This document shows, piece after piece, positions 28,109 through 36,427 of a DNA stretch of 47,801 nt. Numbering within the stretch: position 1 is the first letter of the stretch; the number at the start of each line of letters is the position of its first letter. The stretch is from Verrucomicrobiales bacterium. Lineage in GTDB: Bacteria > Verrucomicrobiota > Verrucomicrobiia > Verrucomicrobiales > DEV007. The notes beneath the pieces are model-generated. The model made no database searches. It saw only the letters and a list, made by a program, of their open reading frames with translations, and was not told where the DNA came from. Both the position numbers and the translations under genes were made by a program. The stretch spans positions 1-47,801 of the forward strand of contig JAEUHH010000037.1 in the NCBI GenBank assembly GCA_016795505.1. Reading direction: 5' to 3'.

Positions 28109-29134
28109 TCAGCTCAACCGGAATGCCTGTCCAATGCCCCCCTCACGCGCCCGTTCGAGGACGAGATGGCCGAGCGCGATGTCGCAGATCGCCATGCCGA
28201 TGGGAATCGCCACGATGCGCTCCTCGTCGCTGTCCCGCGGGCTCTTTTTCCCCGCGACGATGTCGCCGATCGTGGAATGCACGGGAGGGATGCCGCCGGC
28301 AAACTCGGGGTTGTCCTCGCCGCGCTCGTTCTTCCGCCCGATGGAAATTTTCTGAAAGTATTCAACCAGCGGGATGTCGTCGACAATGAACTTGTCGGCC
28401 TGATGGAGAGCTGCCGCGGTGTAGGCGCAGCCACCCTCGATGCCAACGCCGAAGGCCCCCGCCTGAAACCATTCGGGCCGGATGATCTGCTCGTCGCCAT
28501 TGGTGCAGGTCGAGATGACGTGCGCTCCCTCCAGCGCCGCCTGCGCCGACTCGCAGGGCATGAACTCGCCAGTAAAGCAGGAGTTTTCGCGGGCACGACC
28601 GGCGAGAGCGGCGGCCGCGCCGGGACGCACATCGTAGAGACGCACTCGCCGGATGCCGGGCAGCGCGTGGAGGAGGAAACGCAGGTGCATGCCGCCCTGG
28701 AACCCGCATCCCAGCAAAGCCAACTCCGTGGCATCGGCACGGGCGCAGCGGCTTGCGATCACGGTGCTCACGGCGGCAGTGCGCAACCCGGTGAGGTAGG
28801 CGCAATCCATCACCGCGAGCGGGATACCGGTGTCCACATCGTTGCACACCTGGATTCCGGTGACATTCGGAAGGCCGATCGAGGGGTTCTTGGCGAATCC
28901 ACCCACCCATTTCAGACCGCAGGCACCGAGCTGCTTGAGATAAGCCGGCATGGCGTGGATGAAATTATCGGGGTCGGTGCCGGTGGGGTGCACGCCTATC
29001 TTCGGATGCATCTCATAGGTGCCTTCGGAGTGCTCGCGCATCGCCTGCACCACCGCCCCGAGCACCTCGTCCGGGCCAAGGTCAAGTTGGACGATGTCGG
29101 ACTGTGAGAGAAGAAGGATCTCGATGGGGTTCAT
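28109..29134 (-). CDS. ornithine cyclodeaminase / mu-crystallin family protein
   Basis: A 341-residue NAD(P)-binding protein of the OCD/mu-crystallin family (members: ornithine cyclodeaminase, alanine dehydrogenase, ketimine reductase). The N terminus MNPIEILLLSQSDIVQLDLG, GLRTAAVSTVIASR (substrate/cofactor helix), ELALLGCGFQGGMHLRFL (Rossmann loop), and DDIPLVEYFQK with HSTIGDIVAGK are family-typical. The substrate cannot be told. The ATG at 29134 opens the family sequence. The first 59 codons and 79 bases upstream are duplicated at 34719-34974. Downstream it faces the start of the hydrogenase operon at a distance of 165 bases. Confidence 0.88.
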   Translation of the reverse strand: MNPIEILLLSQSDIVQLDLGPDEVLGAVVQAMREHSEGTYEMHPKIGVHPTGTDPDNFIHAMPAYLKQLGACGLKWVGGFAKNPSIGLPNVTGIQVCNDVDTGIPLAVMDCAYLTGLRTAAVSTVIASRCARADATELALLGCGFQGGMHLRFLLHALPGIRRVRLYDVRPGAAAALAGRARENSCFTGEFMPCESAQAALEGAHVISTCTNGDEQIIRPEWFQAGAFGVGIEGGCAYTAAALHQADKFIVDDIPLVEYFQKISIGRKNERGEDNPEFAGGIPPVHSTIGDIVAGKKSPRDSDEERIVAIPIGMAICDIALGHLVLERAREGGIGQAFRLS

Positions 29135-29213
29135 TCGAGGCAGTCTGCCAGCGGGCAGCCAGGGAAACTGCGCAGGATCTGGGATTCTGTGATCATTCCT
29201 TGTCAGAAAATGT
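28958..29213 (-). repeat. 256-base direct repeat, copy A (OCD 5' end)
   Basis: Identical to 34719-34974 except for about five single-base differences (roughly 98 percent). It contains the first 59 codons of the OCD gene and 79 bases of leader. Both copies have the same orientation, 5761 bases apart, so recombination between them would delete the island. Confidence 0.93.
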
Positions 29214-29445
29214 CCCCGGACCCGACGAAGCTTGGGCAACAATCCAACTGCCCCTCAACCCGGCCCCACAGGGCGGCGAGAGAACGGAAGGGTTTGAAAA
29301 GGCGATTTCTTGCTGCCCCTGCAGAGCCTCCAGCACATGGATCAGATGCAGGGGCGGTCTCAGCGGAGTCGAAATCCACCACCGCGAACACAGGGTCTGC
29401 CAGGGGTCGATTGATAGGGCATTCATGGGCGGCATTCGGGTGTGA
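29214..29445. other. spacer without recognisable gene
   Basis: No family-like reading frame was seen. It holds one dyad, cccctgca (29316-29323) and tgcagggg (29347-29354), between the upstream region of the OCD gene and the end of the P-type ATPase remnant. The dyad could be the ATPase terminator, though no T-run accompanies it. Confidence 0.4.
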
Positions 29446-30014
29446 CTACTCGACAGGCGCGATTGTGTCCCGATGACGGCCAAACCGCAGCCATTTCTCC
29501 AATTCGACCACCCCAAAGGACAGCAAAGCGACACCCAGTATGCGCAACCAGGCTCCGCCATCGAGCGGCGCGGTGTGGAAAAGGCGGTTCATAAAGGGCG
29601 CATAAGTGAACAGCATCTGCGCGCCGATCATGCCCGCCGCGCCGAGGAGGGCGAGGCGATTGGTGAACAAGCCCACGTAAAAGACCGAGTGATTCAGCGA
29701 TCGGCAGCTAAAGAGATAGGCCACTTCCACCATGACGATCACATTGATCACCGCTGTGCGCGCTGCGGAGATGGATTCACCGCCGACCCTGGTTTCGAAA
29801 AAATAGAGCCAGTAGCCGCCGATGATCATGATGAGGGAGATGAGGCCGGTGTGCCGCCGCGCGCGGTGACGACATTGAGGCCGTGTTCGTTTTGCCTTCG
29901 GAACACCTCGGCGGCATCGAGGCCGCGCTGGCAGTCGGTCTGGAGCAACTGCACCACCTCGGACATTCCGAGCTGATGCCAGAGCGAGGCGGAGTTTTGG
30001 GATGATGACATCAC
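29446..30014 (-). pseudogene. cation P-type ATPase with internal deletion
   Basis: From ATG 30014 the first 50 codons are a P-type ATPase N-terminal domain: WHQLGMSEVVQLLQTDCQRG then LDAAEVFRRQNEHGLNVV. The frame then jumps near 29845-29862. After the jump about 135 codons match the C-terminal membrane domain: ISAARTAVINVIVMVEVAYL, FSCRSLNHSVF, TNRLALLGAAGMIGAQM and TYAPFMNRLFHTAPLD. The missing middle, about 650-700 residues in a normal pump of this class, contained the actuator, the phosphorylated DKTGT site and the nucleotide domain, so the protein cannot pump. Its ATG overlaps the stop of the TIM-barrel gene by 4 bases, showing it was once part of that operon. Confidence 0.85.
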
Positions 30015-30859
30015 GACTTCTGGTTAGTAGTGAGTAATTTCGAGAGAAAATTCTGCCCATCGCGGGCGCGAGAGAGGGTATCGGCGATGGTTTCGCTTTC
30101 CGGAGCGGACATCTCGATGATGAATCCTCCACCAAAATCGTGGCGCTGGAGTTCCCCGATGACCCATGGCCAGTCGATGGCTCCATCGCCGGGGATAAGG
30201 TGCGCGTCCCAGTCGCCATGATTGTCGTTGATGTGGACCAACTTGAGGTGTCCTGAGAGTTTGTGGATCACGCTGCCGAGATCACCGCTGAGATGGGCGT
30301 GGCCGGTGTCCAGGCACGTGCCCACGGTACACGTGCTGATCTCGCCCAGTAAATACATCATGTCACTGGTGCGCCCGAAGAGCAGATGCGGCAGCATGTT
30401 CTCCAGCAGGAGCCGCACGCCCACTCGGCAGCAGTACGCGGCCACTTCATTGAGCGAAAGGGCCGCGTGGCGCATTCGTTCAAGGAACTCATCCTCTGGA
30501 GGCCTGCCTTCCCGCTCCGGCCCGGGGTGCAGCACCACGTTCTCCGCGCCAATCAAGGCCGCGGCGCGGCACGCCGCCGTGAGTTCCGCCACCGCAGCTG
30601 CGCGAACCCCGTCATCCGGGGAGGTGATGTCGATACGTTCCGCAAACGGGGCATGGAAAGAGTAAGGGCGCAGCCCCAGCGAGCGCATCGCCTTTCCCGC
30701 CTGCCGCACCTCATCCTCACGGTGGTAATCGAGGTGCTTCGGAAAGGAGCAAACCTCGATGAGTTCGAATCCTCCGGCGCGGATCTCCGCGAGCACATCG
30801 AAGATGCGGTGACGCCAGAAACAACCGGTCGACAAGCCGATGGGCCAGGATGAAGTCAT
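30011..30859 (-). CDS. sugar phosphate isomerase/epimerase, AP-endonuclease-2-like TIM barrel
   Basis: A 282-residue cytoplasmic protein of the xylose-isomerase-like TIM-barrel superfamily. Metal-site signatures include LIEVCSFPKHLDY, YSFHAPFAERIDI, NVVLHPGPE (His), LLLENMLPH (Glu), CLDTGHAHLSG (Asp, His), VHINDNHGDWDAHLIPGDG and FIIEMSAPES (Glu). The set is intact for a divalent-metal isomerase, epimerase or endonuclease-IV-like fold. The substrate is unknown. The start at 30859 overlaps the upstream primase-like gene by 4 bases, and the stop overlaps the ATPase remnant, so it belongs to the island operon. Confidence 0.85.
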   Translation of the reverse strand: MTSSWPIGLSTGCFWRHRIFDVLAEIRAGGFELIEVCSFPKHLDYHREDEVRQAGKAMRSLGLRPYSFHAPFAERIDITSPDDGVRAAAVAELTAACRAAALIGAENVVLHPGPEREGRPPEDEFLERMRHAALSLNEVAAYCCRVGVRLLLENMLPHLLFGRTSDMMYLLGEISTCTVGTCLDTGHAHLSGDLGSVIHKLSGHLKLVHINDNHGDWDAHLIPGDGAIDWPWVIGELQRHDFGGGFIIEMSAPESETIADTLSRARDGQNFLSKLLTTNQKS

Positions 30860-32258
30860 GAGGAATGAGGGGATTGAATTTTGCGAAGCGTGGGCGCGAG
30901 CGTGCAGGCATCGCCTCCCGTCGGTGGAAAGCAGAATCCTTTTTCCTGGGTGGAGGTACAATTCAGATCCACGAGCGAATCCAGTCCGGTGTCGAGCATC
31001 CCGGCGAACAACCGGGTGTAGAAATCCGCCCGGATCGCCGGCACATAGTCGCCCCAGTTCACCCCCAATTGAAGGCCGGATTCTCATACTTGGAACGGAC
31101 AAGTCCTGCAATGTGCCTCGGGTGCCAGCCTTCCGCCAGCAGGCAGCGGGTGAGAAGTTGAATGCCGGCCGGCTTCAATAGAAGGTCGTTGGGCCAGACC
31201 AGCAAATGCCGCGCGCAGGGCGGGAGGGTTTCGAGCGGAGTGCGATCGTAGGTTTCGTGCCAGCGTTCTCTCGGATCGTGCCGGTCGGCGTGGAAAAATT
31301 CGTGGAAACAGCGCAGGGGAGAGGCGAGATACTCATCCAGGAGGCGCGTGGTGCCGGCCGATTGCTCGGGAATTCGCACGCAGGCCCGGCGGGCGAGATC
31401 CCGCACATCCGCGTCCACCTGCCGCACTTTGATGGCCTGACGGATGTCAATCTCGTGCAGCGGAATGGCGCGAAAGGCGGGTATTTGCCCCTCGAGACCC
31501 AGCGAGCGGGCCATCCCGTTGACCCATGGTTTAAGATAGTTGGTAAATGGCATGCGTATCATCCGGGTATGCAGCGGGTCACCATACTCGGAGATGTCGA
31601 TGGAAACGATCTCCCGTTTCCGGGTAGTGCAGGGTTCCACCTGCACGGCGGTGATCGTCACAGGAATCTTGGAAAGCGGCGCGGCGGCGGTCTTCACTCG
31701 ATGCGCCAGGTACTCCATGAGCAGCGCCAGACCCGCAAACCCGCGCTGGGCATTGGCGTCTATCGCCTCCCGAAAGGGCGCGGGCACCCGTTCGACGCAA
31801 CTGTCCAGCAACTCCGGCGCCGGGCAAAGTGCAGAAATACGTCCCGCCACCTCGGAGTCACGCCTGACGCGCCAAACGAAATGATGACCCTGCCCCGTGA
31901 TCAGGTGCAAGGGCCTGATGCCCTGCTCAAGCAGCAAGGTCTGGATCGCATTCACCGCCGGCTCCTGAAGGTCGAAGGCACGCCACGGATCCACGAAGGC
32001 TTCGGCGGGCGAGTCGAAATTCACATACTCAATATCCAGATGCAGCAGCAACGAGTCCGTGTCCGCGAAGGAGCGCGCCAAATCCAGCTCGCTGGATAGA
32101 AGCTGGTCCAGATCGGCTGGGCGGCGCAACTGTTCCCGATCGAACCGGCAGCCGTCCGACGGAGTGACGTAAGTCGCCGTCGCGCGCTCCAGCGTGTCGC
32201 CGCCGAGAAACTCAATCAACCGACAGCGCACCGCTGGATCTGAATAGACAGAGGGCAT
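30856..32258 (-). pseudogene. AEP-primase-like protein gene with homopolymer frameshift
   Basis: Frame one from ATG 32258 runs 399 codons to YENPAFNWG and stops at 31059. Frame two continues seamlessly with GVNWGDYVPAIRADFYTRLF to 30856. Adding one G to the G5 run at about 31062-31066 gives a 467-residue protein. No family is named by eye. However, LHLDIEYVNF (Asp75, Glu77), TGQGHHFVW (His125-126), VSIDISEYGDP (Asp221) and RMIRMPFTNYLKPW occur in the order and spacing of the DxE, H, D and R/K motifs of archaeo-eukaryotic primases. That assignment is inference. It is tightly linked to DUF2934 upstream and the TIM barrel downstream. The indel may be decay, phase variation or a sequencing error. 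Confidence 0.5.
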
Positions 32259-33142: not shown

Positions 33143-33682
33143 TCAATCGCCGACTCGCACCTCCACGGCACTGCGGCCCAATTTTTCGAGCAGCCGCTTG
33201 AAATGCAGCAGCGGCCACCAGCGGTAGAGACCAATCTCCAGCGGCTTCCACATGGCGACCCAGCCCGCGATCGTCAATCCTTCGCGGACGATTCCCTGCC
33301 AGTGCTCTTGATCGGCAGCCAGAAAACTGGCGAGAATCTGGCAGGAAACCAGGAATAACAGGCCGATCAAAAGGCTGATTCGCCCCTCCCGCAGCAACTG
33401 CTTGAATTCGCGGAGTGTCATATCGGCTCGATAGCGAAAGTAGTGCTGGAAGGAGGTGGCGATGAGTTCCTCCGCTTGAGCCATTCCATCGGGCCGCTTC
33501 GCGAGGTGGACGACGATGCGGATCAGGGAACGCTTCGGACATTCCTGCGCCCAGCTCACGATGAACTGCTCGGCGTCCCGGTCCAGATCTCGCTCGTGAA
33601 AGGGCGAGGGATCCATCGAATTGAAGAGTTGGTGAATATCCGAAACCTTCAGCTCGATCAGATGCGGAGGATTGGCGGTCAT
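33143..33682 (-). CDS. conserved membrane protein with DPSPFHERDLD motif
   Basis: A 179-residue protein. The N-terminal cytoplasmic part carries KVSDIHQLFNSMDPSPFHER and DLDRDAEQFIVSWAQE, a motif I associate with an unnamed family of conserved hypothetical proteins. Then RSLIRIVVHLAKR is followed by two membrane helices (ISLLIGLLFLVSCQILASFL and GLTIAGWVAMWKPLEIGLY) and a basic tail. The ATG at 33682 begins the conserved part. It is first in the minus-strand island operon and divergent from the stress-protein gene. Function unknown. Confidence 0.7.
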   Translation of the reverse strand: MTANPPHLIELKVSDIHQLFNSMDPSPFHERDLDRDAEQFIVSWAQECPKRSLIRIVVHLAKRPDGMAQAEELIATSFQHYFRYRADMTLREFKQLLREGRISLLIGLLFLVSCQILASFLAADQEHWQGIVREGLTIAGWVAMWKPLEIGLYRWWPLLHFKRLLEKLGRSAVEVRVGD

Positions 33683-33769
33683 GGCGGATGGTTTCATCTT
33701 GGCAGGCACCCTGCTATGGCAGGGCGAATCATTCATTGAAAGCGAGCGATGGGGCAAGCGCATTTCGAA

Positions 33770-34718: not shown

Positions 34719-34895
34719 GATGAAATTATCGGGGTCGGTGCCGGTGGGGTGCACGCCTATCTTCGGATGCATCTCATAGGTGCCTTCGGAGTGCTCGCGC
34801 ATCGCCTGCACCACCGCCCCGAGCACCTCGTCCGGGCCAAGGTCGAGTTGGACGATGTCGGACTGTGAGAGAAGAAGGATCTCGATGGGGTTCAT
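34719..34895 (-). pseudogene. truncated duplicate of the OCD-family gene
   Basis: The ATG at 34895 and the next 58 codons repeat the N terminus of the gene at 28109-29134. Past 34719 the frame runs into 20 unrelated codons and stops at 34659. Only the start of the first domain remains, so it is not functional. It shows that the leader region was copied together with the gene start. Confidence 0.9.
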
Positions 34896-34974
34896 TCGAG
34901 GCAGCCTGCCAGCGGGCCGCCAGGGAAACTGCGCAGGATCTGGGATTCTGTGATCGTTCCTTGTCAGGAAATGT
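34719..34974 (-). repeat. 256-base direct repeat, copy B (OCD 5' end)
   Basis: Second copy of 28958-29213 with five single-base differences. Sequence similarity ends abruptly on both sides, at 34719 (inside codon 59) and 34974 (79 bases upstream of the ATG). Confidence 0.93.
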
Positions 34975-35117
34975 GCCTTGTCGGAACAAGGTCATATCAA
35001 AACCGCAATCGATGTCTCGAAGCAAAGCTCTCACCGGCGGGGCGGCCTACGGCTTTCAGGCTCTGCCGAAGTGGGGAGATCCAAATCGCAAAAAACCGGC
35101 GAACACGGTCCGAGCAC

Positions 35118-36182
35118 TCACTTCCCCAAGGTGATCCGCGCCGAACAAATGTCGCTGTAGAGCTCGCCGGGCGAGCCTTTCTTCTGCGCCCAGACCGCGA
35201 CGAGGGTGCCATCGGCCAGTTCGGTTAGCGTGGGATAGCAGATCGACCAGCCGCTTTCTTTACTGGGCCTGTCGGCGAGGAGCGTGGGCTCGCTCCAGGT
35301 CGCGCCTTCGTCACGCGAGGTGCGGATCATGAGGGGGAAGCGCAGCGGATCGGGACCGGGATTGTAGGTGAGGACGAGGGTGCCGTCGCGGGTGCACAGG
35401 AGGTGGGAGGCACTCGAGGTGGAGGCGAGGCCTGTCTTTTCCGCGGCGCTCCACGTTTCGCCCCGGTCACGGCTGATGGAACGCCAGAGCTGGCCGTCCT
35501 TGGTGCGCAGGATCATGTGGATCGGGCCGGACTTCGACTCGGCGATGGTCGGCTCGCCACCCTGACCGTCGGGATTGGCGACCGCGCCGTGGCGTGTCCA
35601 GGTCGCGCCTCCATCGCGCGATTTCAAGACTCCTCCGTTTTTGGTCCCCCGAAGGTGCAGCGGCACGAGCAGTTCGCCGGTGGACAAGCGGATGCCGTTG
35701 GAGCGGGTCGTGTGATTGGGCTGATCCAGTTTCACCGGTTCGGTCCAGGTCTTCGCGGAGTCGCCGCTGCGGCGGAAGTAAACGTCGAGTTTCGGATGTA
35801 TCGCGGAGAAAAAGAGAAAGGTCTCGTTTTCCGCGACGAACAAGGCCGGATCAAAGTCCGCCGCGCCCTCGAAGTCCTGCAGGATCGTCGGTGCGCCCCA
35901 GGTGCGGCCGCCATCGGCGGAAAAGGCCTGCACGAGCCGCTGCGAGACCGCGCCCTCGGACGGGGAGGAAAACCACGCGGCCATGACCCGTCCATCCGGC
36001 AGGGCGGCGACGCTCGGACCGAAGTTGTAGCCCGAAGTGTTCGCCGGATCTTCGGGATCGATACCCGTGTGCCGGACGACGACGGCCCGGTCGGTGATGG
36101 TGATCGGCGATTCCGCGCGAAGCGTGGCGGGAAAGACGAGAGCGAGGATCGAAAAAAGAGTGAGGCGGGCGATCATGGGCAT
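35118..36182 (-). CDS. secreted sialidase / BNR-repeat glycosidase-like protein
   Basis: A 354-residue exported protein (signal peptide from MPMIARLTLFSILALVFPAT). Four Asp-box repeats, SADGGRTWGAP, SRDGGATWTRH, SRDRGETWSAA and SRDEGATWSEP, mark a six-bladed sialidase propeller. Arg residues in HTTRSNGIRL and LMIRTSRDEG could be part of the Arg triad; GEPTIAESKSG and YPTLTELADGT hold the usual acidic and tyrosine regions. The family cleaves sialic acid or related ulosonic residues, although many Verrucomicrobial members have other specificities. The start is one of two ATGs two codons apart (36182, 36176). It is the most downstream gene of the polysaccharide block in transcription order. Confidence 0.85.
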   Translation of the reverse strand: MPMIARLTLFSILALVFPATLRAESPITITDRAVVVRHTGIDPEDPANTSGYNFGPSVAALPDGRVMAAWFSSPSEGAVSQRLVQAFSADGGRTWGAPTILQDFEGAADFDPALFVAENETFLFFSAIHPKLDVYFRRSGDSAKTWTEPVKLDQPNHTTRSNGIRLSTGELLVPLHLRGTKNGGVLKSRDGGATWTRHGAVANPDGQGGEPTIAESKSGPIHMILRTKDGQLWRSISRDRGETWSAAEKTGLASTSSASHLLCTRDGTLVLTYNPGPDPLRFPLMIRTSRDEGATWSEPTLLADRPSKESGWSICYPTLTELADGTLVAVWAQKKGSPGELYSDICSARITLGK

Positions 36183-36220
36183 GGGGTGGGACGGGGAACG
36201 GGGCAAGTCGATACCAACGA

Positions 36221-36351
36221 TACCTTCCTTTGTCCCCACTCTTTTCTCCAAAAATGGCGGACGGAAAAAGACCGGTTTGTCGGCTAGAGCACGGGTGCCG
36301 CGCGGAGCACGAAGATCGGATCGGACATGGGAATGTGGACAAGGGAATACC
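36221..36351. repeat. GGACA-GGAAT dyad cluster upstream of the sialidase gene
   Basis: taccttcctttgtcccc (36221-36237, inverted form), ggacatgggaat (36323-36334) and ggacaagggaatacc (36337-36351) lie 39 to 169 bases upstream of the sialidase start. Two copies in tandem are 14 bases apart. Confidence 0.55.
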
Positions 36352-36427
36352 AACCTTTCATTCCTTTTTCCCGGATAGCACGGCAGGATGCGATCGTTTC
36401 GCCAGAACGGACACTTCCTTTGAAAAC

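Follow-up and report, generated by a model that had tools for sequence, protein, structure and literature searches.

Gene order and frame break at the primase locus

The window, i.e. the whole 47,801-nucleotide stretch of a Verrucomicrobiales bacterium that was analysed (from contig JAEUHH010000037.1), carries on its minus strand a gene for a primase-like protein and, directly downstream, a gene for a TIM-barrel protein (Table 1). The main reading frame of the first gene encodes the stretches LDIEY, GQGHHF, SIDISEYGDP and IRMPFTNYLKP and ends early at a TGA (31059-31061) directly past a G5 tract. The original TGA of the gene lies further downstream, where it overlaps the ATG of the TIM-barrel gene as ATGA (30856-30859). 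This is the commonest stop/start overlap, and an overlap of 4 nt is found in 44 of 68 loci.

Table 1. Position of the primase-polymerase gene, its motifs and its partner gene in the window
Feature	Position	Strand	Remarks
Primase-polymerase gene	31059..32258	minus	residues 1-399; AEP domain ~1-295 and start of C-terminal domain
AEP motif I, D75-I-E77, catalytic acidic pair	32028..32036	minus	66/66 members
AEP motif II, G124-H-H126 (sxH)	31881..31889	minus	G124 66/66, H126 65/66
AEP motif III, aspartate D221	31596..31598	minus	66/66 members
Cys348, first of four predicted cluster cysteines (LPPC motif)	31215..31217	minus	family alignment
G5 tract, point of divergence from the reading frame in close homologues	31062..31066	minus	sequence and homologue comparison
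Out-of-frame rest of C-terminal domain, predicted cysteines 2-4	30856..31068	minus	71-72% identity to L024/L025/L002
EndoIV-like TIM barrel (PF01261), 282 aa	30011..30859	minus	nine expected metal-ligand positions present

The break amounts to one base step at the G5 tract and falls between the first and the second of the predicted cysteines. Past it, the second open reading frame encodes 70 residues, and the quoted identity to L024, L025 and L002, which are unbroken through the same site, extends over 68 of them. A family profile search of the window's own genome returns two separate matches (31059-32255 and 30868-31065), and this is the single copy of the family in that genome. The out-of-frame tail has retained clear conservation, and the break is therefore recent or an assembly error. 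Programmed frameshifting was rejected since close homologues continue without a break. The protein of the window copy lacks cysteines 2-4 and is thus probably impaired, provided that the break is genuine and not an assembly error. An earlier note, made from the sequence alone, had placed the break at the G5 tract and estimated 467 residues for the repaired protein. The position is confirmed by the continuation in the frame of the second reading frame, and the length fits the family because most intact homologues extend 64-84 residues past the stop of the window protein. Further broken-looking copies occur in draft genomes, e.g. L045, L074 and L076.

Several features surround the two genes. The primase pair lies in a block with DUF2934 and Usp genes that is bounded on both sides by a 259-bp direct repeat (98%; 28958-29216 and 34719-34977), which comprises the 5' end of a gene of the ornithine-cyclodeaminase-like type. 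This suggests that the block was inserted or duplicated, or that the repeat is an artefact of assembly; in the three other genomes of the genus no comparable gene was found at E<=1e-60. Directly after the TIM barrel (29446-30014) lies a decayed gene for a P-type cation ATPase, of which the N- and C-terminal parts remain in different frames and the central part is lost. A 206-aa protein encoded at 33143-33763 has no confident family (Phage_holin_2, E 0.089), and a relative of it (49%) is found downstream of the pair in L045. The protein encoded at 35118-36353 contains repeated SxDxGxTW-like motifs, presumably of the sialidase/BNR-repeat type.

Catalytic domain and four-cysteine domain of the family

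A structural model was predicted with AlphaFold2 for the homologue L024, which is 81% identical to the window protein, using a 48-row alignment (pLDDT 92.7, pTM 0.93). Foldseek with this model ranks Prim-PolC of Mycobacterium smegmatis first at E 0.027, with nothing at E<=0.001. Realignment with VIA gives Z 16.4 over 249 residues at 3.5 A for Prim-PolC, Z 14-15 for LigD polymerase domains, about 12.5 for CAPP and about 10-12 for PriS. Based on this model the gene product is an AEP with an RRM-like prim fold of the prim/PolDom type, and hence a bacterial relative of the primases of archaea and eukaryotes. The earlier note had named a non-RRM-like fold, or an acidic triad missing from homologues, as grounds for giving up the AEP assignment; with a predicted prim/PolDom fold and the triad kept, the assignment survives.

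AEP motifs I, II and III are described in PMC5862659 as hhhDhD/E, sxH and hD/E, and all three are present in the family. We aligned 66 members, having dropped incomplete or broken ones (L018, L021, L022, L074-L076) beforehand and entered identical sequences once. Residues D75, E77, G122, G124, W129, D221, R232 and K243 are invariant in this alignment. Since D75, E77 and D221 are kept in all 66 members and H126 in 65, the motif match is not due to chance, and the order of DxE, H and D motifs that had been read from the window sequence is borne out by the homologues.

The gene had also been called unrecognised, rightly so: no family of Pfam, PHROG or PADLOC scored above cut-off in scans of the protein and its family, and none of NCBIfam in a scan of the window protein only. 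The Pfam LigD_Prim-Pol model stayed below cut-off, matching one of 48 members at E 0.24, and in sequence searches of the PDB neither the window protein nor the family and C-terminal profiles found an AEP or PriL. A divergent subfamily was seen in another family of the phylum (f36; L086:648-2012, L086:2343-3656 and L088:154-1443), in which D.E, G.H and D are kept as judged by eye and which has no PF01261-like partner among the listed adjoining reading frames of at least 200 aa. The two divergent copies in L086 lie face to face. A distant member (L087:1759-4111, genome G342) precedes an EndoIV-like TIM barrel that is fragmentary and lies in a different frame.

Residues ~293-467 are predicted to form a separate helical domain (pLDDT 90.5 in a model of its own). 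In L024 this domain contains four cysteines, namely Cys348 in the LPPC motif followed by 434, 443 and 452, and the family pattern is typically C-x85-C-x8-C-x4-8-C. The distance between the first two is 84-87 in 49 of the 51 members with at least three tail cysteines, and the next spacings are mostly 9, then 5-9. The four cysteines are kept or lost together: of the 48 members in one alignment, 36 possess the first cysteine and at least two of the tail, 11 have neither and a single one is discordant (L045, with an odd tail). All four are gone in 11 of 64 members, which retain the catalytic residues. The best tree of the catalytic part, with 64 scored rows, has four changes of the first cysteine and five of the tail, while its strongly supported branches force only one cysteine change; independent losses are thus likely but not proven.

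The four-cysteine arrangement resembles that of the archaeal and eukaryotic PriL Fe-S domain. For the yeast PriL-CTD, PMC2852410 gives cysteines 336, 417, 434 and 474, with a first-to-second distance of 81, and describes the last part of the archaeal domain as nearly absent except for a linker with two cysteines and one helix. The Pfam PriL model PF04104 matches two of 36 C-terminal domains below its cut-off (best E 0.0011). When applied to 19 whole genomes the same model yields eight matches, four of which lie in this gene (G054, G055, G060 and G067; E 0.016-0.71, none over cut-off). Ten C-terminal domains chosen from the 36 gave no PriL match in Pfam, so only a minority of members show a PriL sequence signal. 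PF04104 has no match in the window's own genome, as expected for a cut copy. The C-terminal profile missed PriL in the PDB, where it found only CCDC25 (E 0.19-0.23). A fold search with the C-terminal model (Foldseek/VIA) gave no PriL among the matches listed; the best VIA Z is 3.3, and the Z of 3.1 for the S. islandicus primase-polymerase is too weak to use. Taken together, we regard the domain as quite probably akin to the minimal archaeal PriL Fe-S domain, and it is predicted to hold a 4Fe-4S cluster.

Pairing with an EndoIV-like TIM barrel and genomic context

The TIM-barrel protein matches PF01261 at E 1.5e-38. In a set of 95 related genomes the primase family is found in 22 genomes at 23 places, 22 of which are followed by the TIM barrel, and the 23rd (G011) meets the contig end. 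Conversely, all 22 TIM-barrel places in these genomes (21 genomes) adjoin a primase and none stands alone. Outside the window 75 loci were compared, including a few that represent one gene retrieved twice. In 73 of them the sequence extends far enough downstream to hold a partner gene, and the TIM barrel is present in 72 (in L045 as a fragment only) and missing from L042. The primase and the EndoIV-like TIM barrel thus form a conserved two-gene module. The earlier note had grouped the gene with both DUF2934 and an AP-endonuclease-like TIM barrel. The TIM barrel holds as a partner, but DUF2934 was rejected: apart from the window, it adjoins the gene only in a single close relative (L002, which was retrieved as L025 too) and is therefore outside the unit.

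Nine residues of the TIM barrel are identical in 68 of 68 sequences, i.e. His84, His126, Glu168, Asp199, His202, His224, Asp233, His235 and Glu264 (numbered in the longer reading frame). Alignment to E. coli Nfo with hhalign (probability 97%, E 7e-11) places eight of the nine on the Nfo elements HPG, EN, DTCHA, HLND, DRH and E, which we take to be metal ligands, and the ninth (HAPF) lies outside the alignment. The positions of the trinuclear EndoIV metal ligands are thus present in the partner. Its substrate need not be DNA, since the nearest solved sequence is the uncharacterised MJ1311 (E 2.5e-34), followed by EndoIV proteins mixed with sugar epimerases, and since its EndoIV and CbiR scores in NCBIfam are far under the curated cut-offs (48.1 bits against 244 for deoxyribonuclease IV).

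The pair has a patchy distribution. In the phylum sample the primase family occurs in 10 of 387 genomes, and a GTDB contig collection yielded 53 loci labelled mostly Verrucomicrobiota, with other labels from Planctomycetota, Fibrobacterota, Desulfobacterales, Omnitrophota, Acidobacteria, Hydrogenedentota and Gemmatimonadetes. As the carriers are mostly metagenome bins, individual phylum labels may be erroneous. Isolates with the family are Verrucomicrobium sp. BvORR106 and BvORR034, and it is also present in the single-contig genome G094. The pair is chromosomal and cellular: the family profile has no match in the viral contigs of IMG/VR, and a tblastn search with one member (L053) found none in plasmids and phages.

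No constant third gene is found among the 97 nearest neighbour reading frames. Usp and Hsp20 account for five each, which is suggestive only, and PEP synthase/PPDK and P-type ATPases for two each; in L070 a P-type ATPase follows the pair. The 25 neighbour families listed of 149 include no ligase, LigD polymerase, Ku, helicase, single-strand-binding or replication family and no recurrent effector, transposase or restriction family. An ATP-dependent ligase is encoded in 40 of the 95 genomes, among them 16 of the 22 with the pair, and the pair would thus not require a dedicated one.

Possible role of the pair

The closest structural relative, Prim-PolC (PDB 6SA0, 6SA1 and 5OP0), belongs to the mycobacterial LigC excision-repair complex and shares about 16% identity with the family. 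It is reported to fill gaps of 1-3 nt and to peak in expression in early stationary phase (PMC5663958, PMC7442782). According to PMC5663958, it works with EndoIV in stationary-phase excision repair, and of several nucleases compared in vitro EndoIV performed best. The same source describes its gene as operonic with the LigC ligase, not with EndoIV. Prim-PolC is also described as having a Loop 3 (PMC7442782), whereas the family has a helical four-cysteine C-terminal extension instead. LigD polymerase domains (PF21686) share the fold, but the Pfam model does not recognise the family. PriS-PriL and PolpTN2 of plasmid pTN2 combine a prim-fold domain with a PriL-like four-cysteine domain, as the family does, but only a minimal PriL-CTD-like part and no PriL-NTD is seen here. 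PolpTN2 is likewise a single-chain fusion; it is plasmid-borne and, in the account of PMC3973330, lacks the motif II histidine, whereas the family is chromosomal and keeps it. From the PrimPol-PV1 AEPs of mobile elements the family differs in its lack of plasmid, phage and IMG/VR matches. The TIM-barrel partner shares the PF01261 fold and metal-ligand positions with both endonuclease IV (Nfo) and MJ1311, but scores below the Nfo equivalog cut-off.

Since the closest structural relative is a gap-filler that works best with EndoIV, and the same two kinds of enzyme lie here in one operon, we favour short-gap excision repair and, with modest confidence, consider the pair by analogy as a chromosomal gap-filling polymerase with its end-processing nuclease. 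The TIM barrel would clean or incise abasic sites and blocked 3' ends and thereby leave a short gap with a usable 3'-OH, which the primase-polymerase, acting like Prim-PolC or the LigD polymerase domain, would fill before a cellular ligase seals it. The PriL-CTD-like domain with its predicted 4Fe-4S cluster would help the protein to hold on to the DNA and may couple its activity to the redox state. The excess of the pair in Ku-bearing genomes (see below) and the Usp and Hsp20 neighbours also count in favour of this reading. The substrate, the order of these steps and a use in stressed or non-growing cells are what we infer from this analogy.

Alternatively, the pair could be an end-processing branch of NHEJ, in which the AEP would cooperate with Ku and LigD to add nucleotides at double-strand breaks while the EndoIV-like protein cleans 3' ends. 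The nearest folds do include a LigD polymerase domain on annealed breaks (4mky, Z 14.6), and the pair is present in 10 of the 12 Ku-bearing genomes among the 95 compared with 12 of the 83 without Ku (Fisher p 3e-6, uncorrected for kinship). However, 12 of the 22 pair genomes, including that of the window, have no Ku or LigD polymerase match, and two Ku genomes lack the pair. Where they occur, Ku, ligase and LigD polymerase sit together at places away from the pair (in 10 of the 22 pair genomes for LigD polymerase with Ku). We consider an NHEJ role unlikely. We would give slightly more credit, though still little, to a true primase that makes de novo primers for replication restart or damage tolerance, with the PriL-like domain in the role that it has in PriS-PriL and PolpTN2 and the TIM barrel removing or editing primers or lesions. 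The cysteine pattern, PF04104 picking out this gene from whole genomes and the PriL-CTD being essential for starting primer synthesis in eukaryotic primase (PMC2852410) speak for such a function, whereas the loss of the cysteines from members with intact catalytic residues, the lack of replication-type neighbours among the families listed and the gap-filler as the closest fold speak against it.

Two further explanations fare worse. The TIM barrel could be a sugar or cobamide-type enzyme that is merely co-regulated with the polymerase and belongs to another pathway, as epimerase, IolI and CbiR models also match it. EndoIV is trinuclear and the epimerases are mononuclear, and the invariant ligand positions here exceed those of the mononuclear enzymes; together with near-obligate pairing across several phylum labels this renders the explanation improbable. 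AEPs occur in conflict systems, and the patchy distribution among relatives might suggest a defence or conflict module. This we consider very improbable, given that the single PADLOC match in 48 members is Cas2 at E 0.039, that viral contigs, phages and plasmids gave nothing and that no effector, transposase or restriction family recurs among the listed neighbours. The earlier note had left the choice between nucleic-acid maintenance and conflict, and with the near-obligate EndoIV-like partner maintenance is upheld while conflict is not.

The PriL-like C-terminal domain, the strict TIM-barrel module and the chromosomal location go beyond what the earlier note had seen. A literature search whose coverage mostly left out subscription papers and preprints found no paper on a primase/EndoIV-like pair. 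The module represents a conserved, probable repair pair of Verrucomicrobiota and several other phylum labels for which the four family libraries scanned have no entry. We tentatively entertain the possibility that the protein is a single-chain 'minimal primase' on bacterial chromosomes, in which a PriS-like polymerase is joined to a PriL-CTD-like Fe-S domain without the PriL-NTD, in an operon with an EndoIV-type nuclease. If true, gap repair would be carried out by one self-contained machine that is possibly redox-gated, and the members without the four cysteines would be natural cluster-free variants. The protein would also resemble an intermediate proposed for primase evolution in PMC2852410, where a small Fe-S protein is recruited to a prim-fold polymerase. 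Should the C-terminal domain be of the PriL Fe-S type, bacteria possess a prim-fold polymerase fused to such a domain in a cellular setting, and the members that naturally lack the cysteines can serve as a comparison in the debate on what the cluster does in primases. That the gene is so constantly paired with one for an EndoIV-like protein also supports AEP-driven excision repair genetically in bacteria other than mycobacteria.
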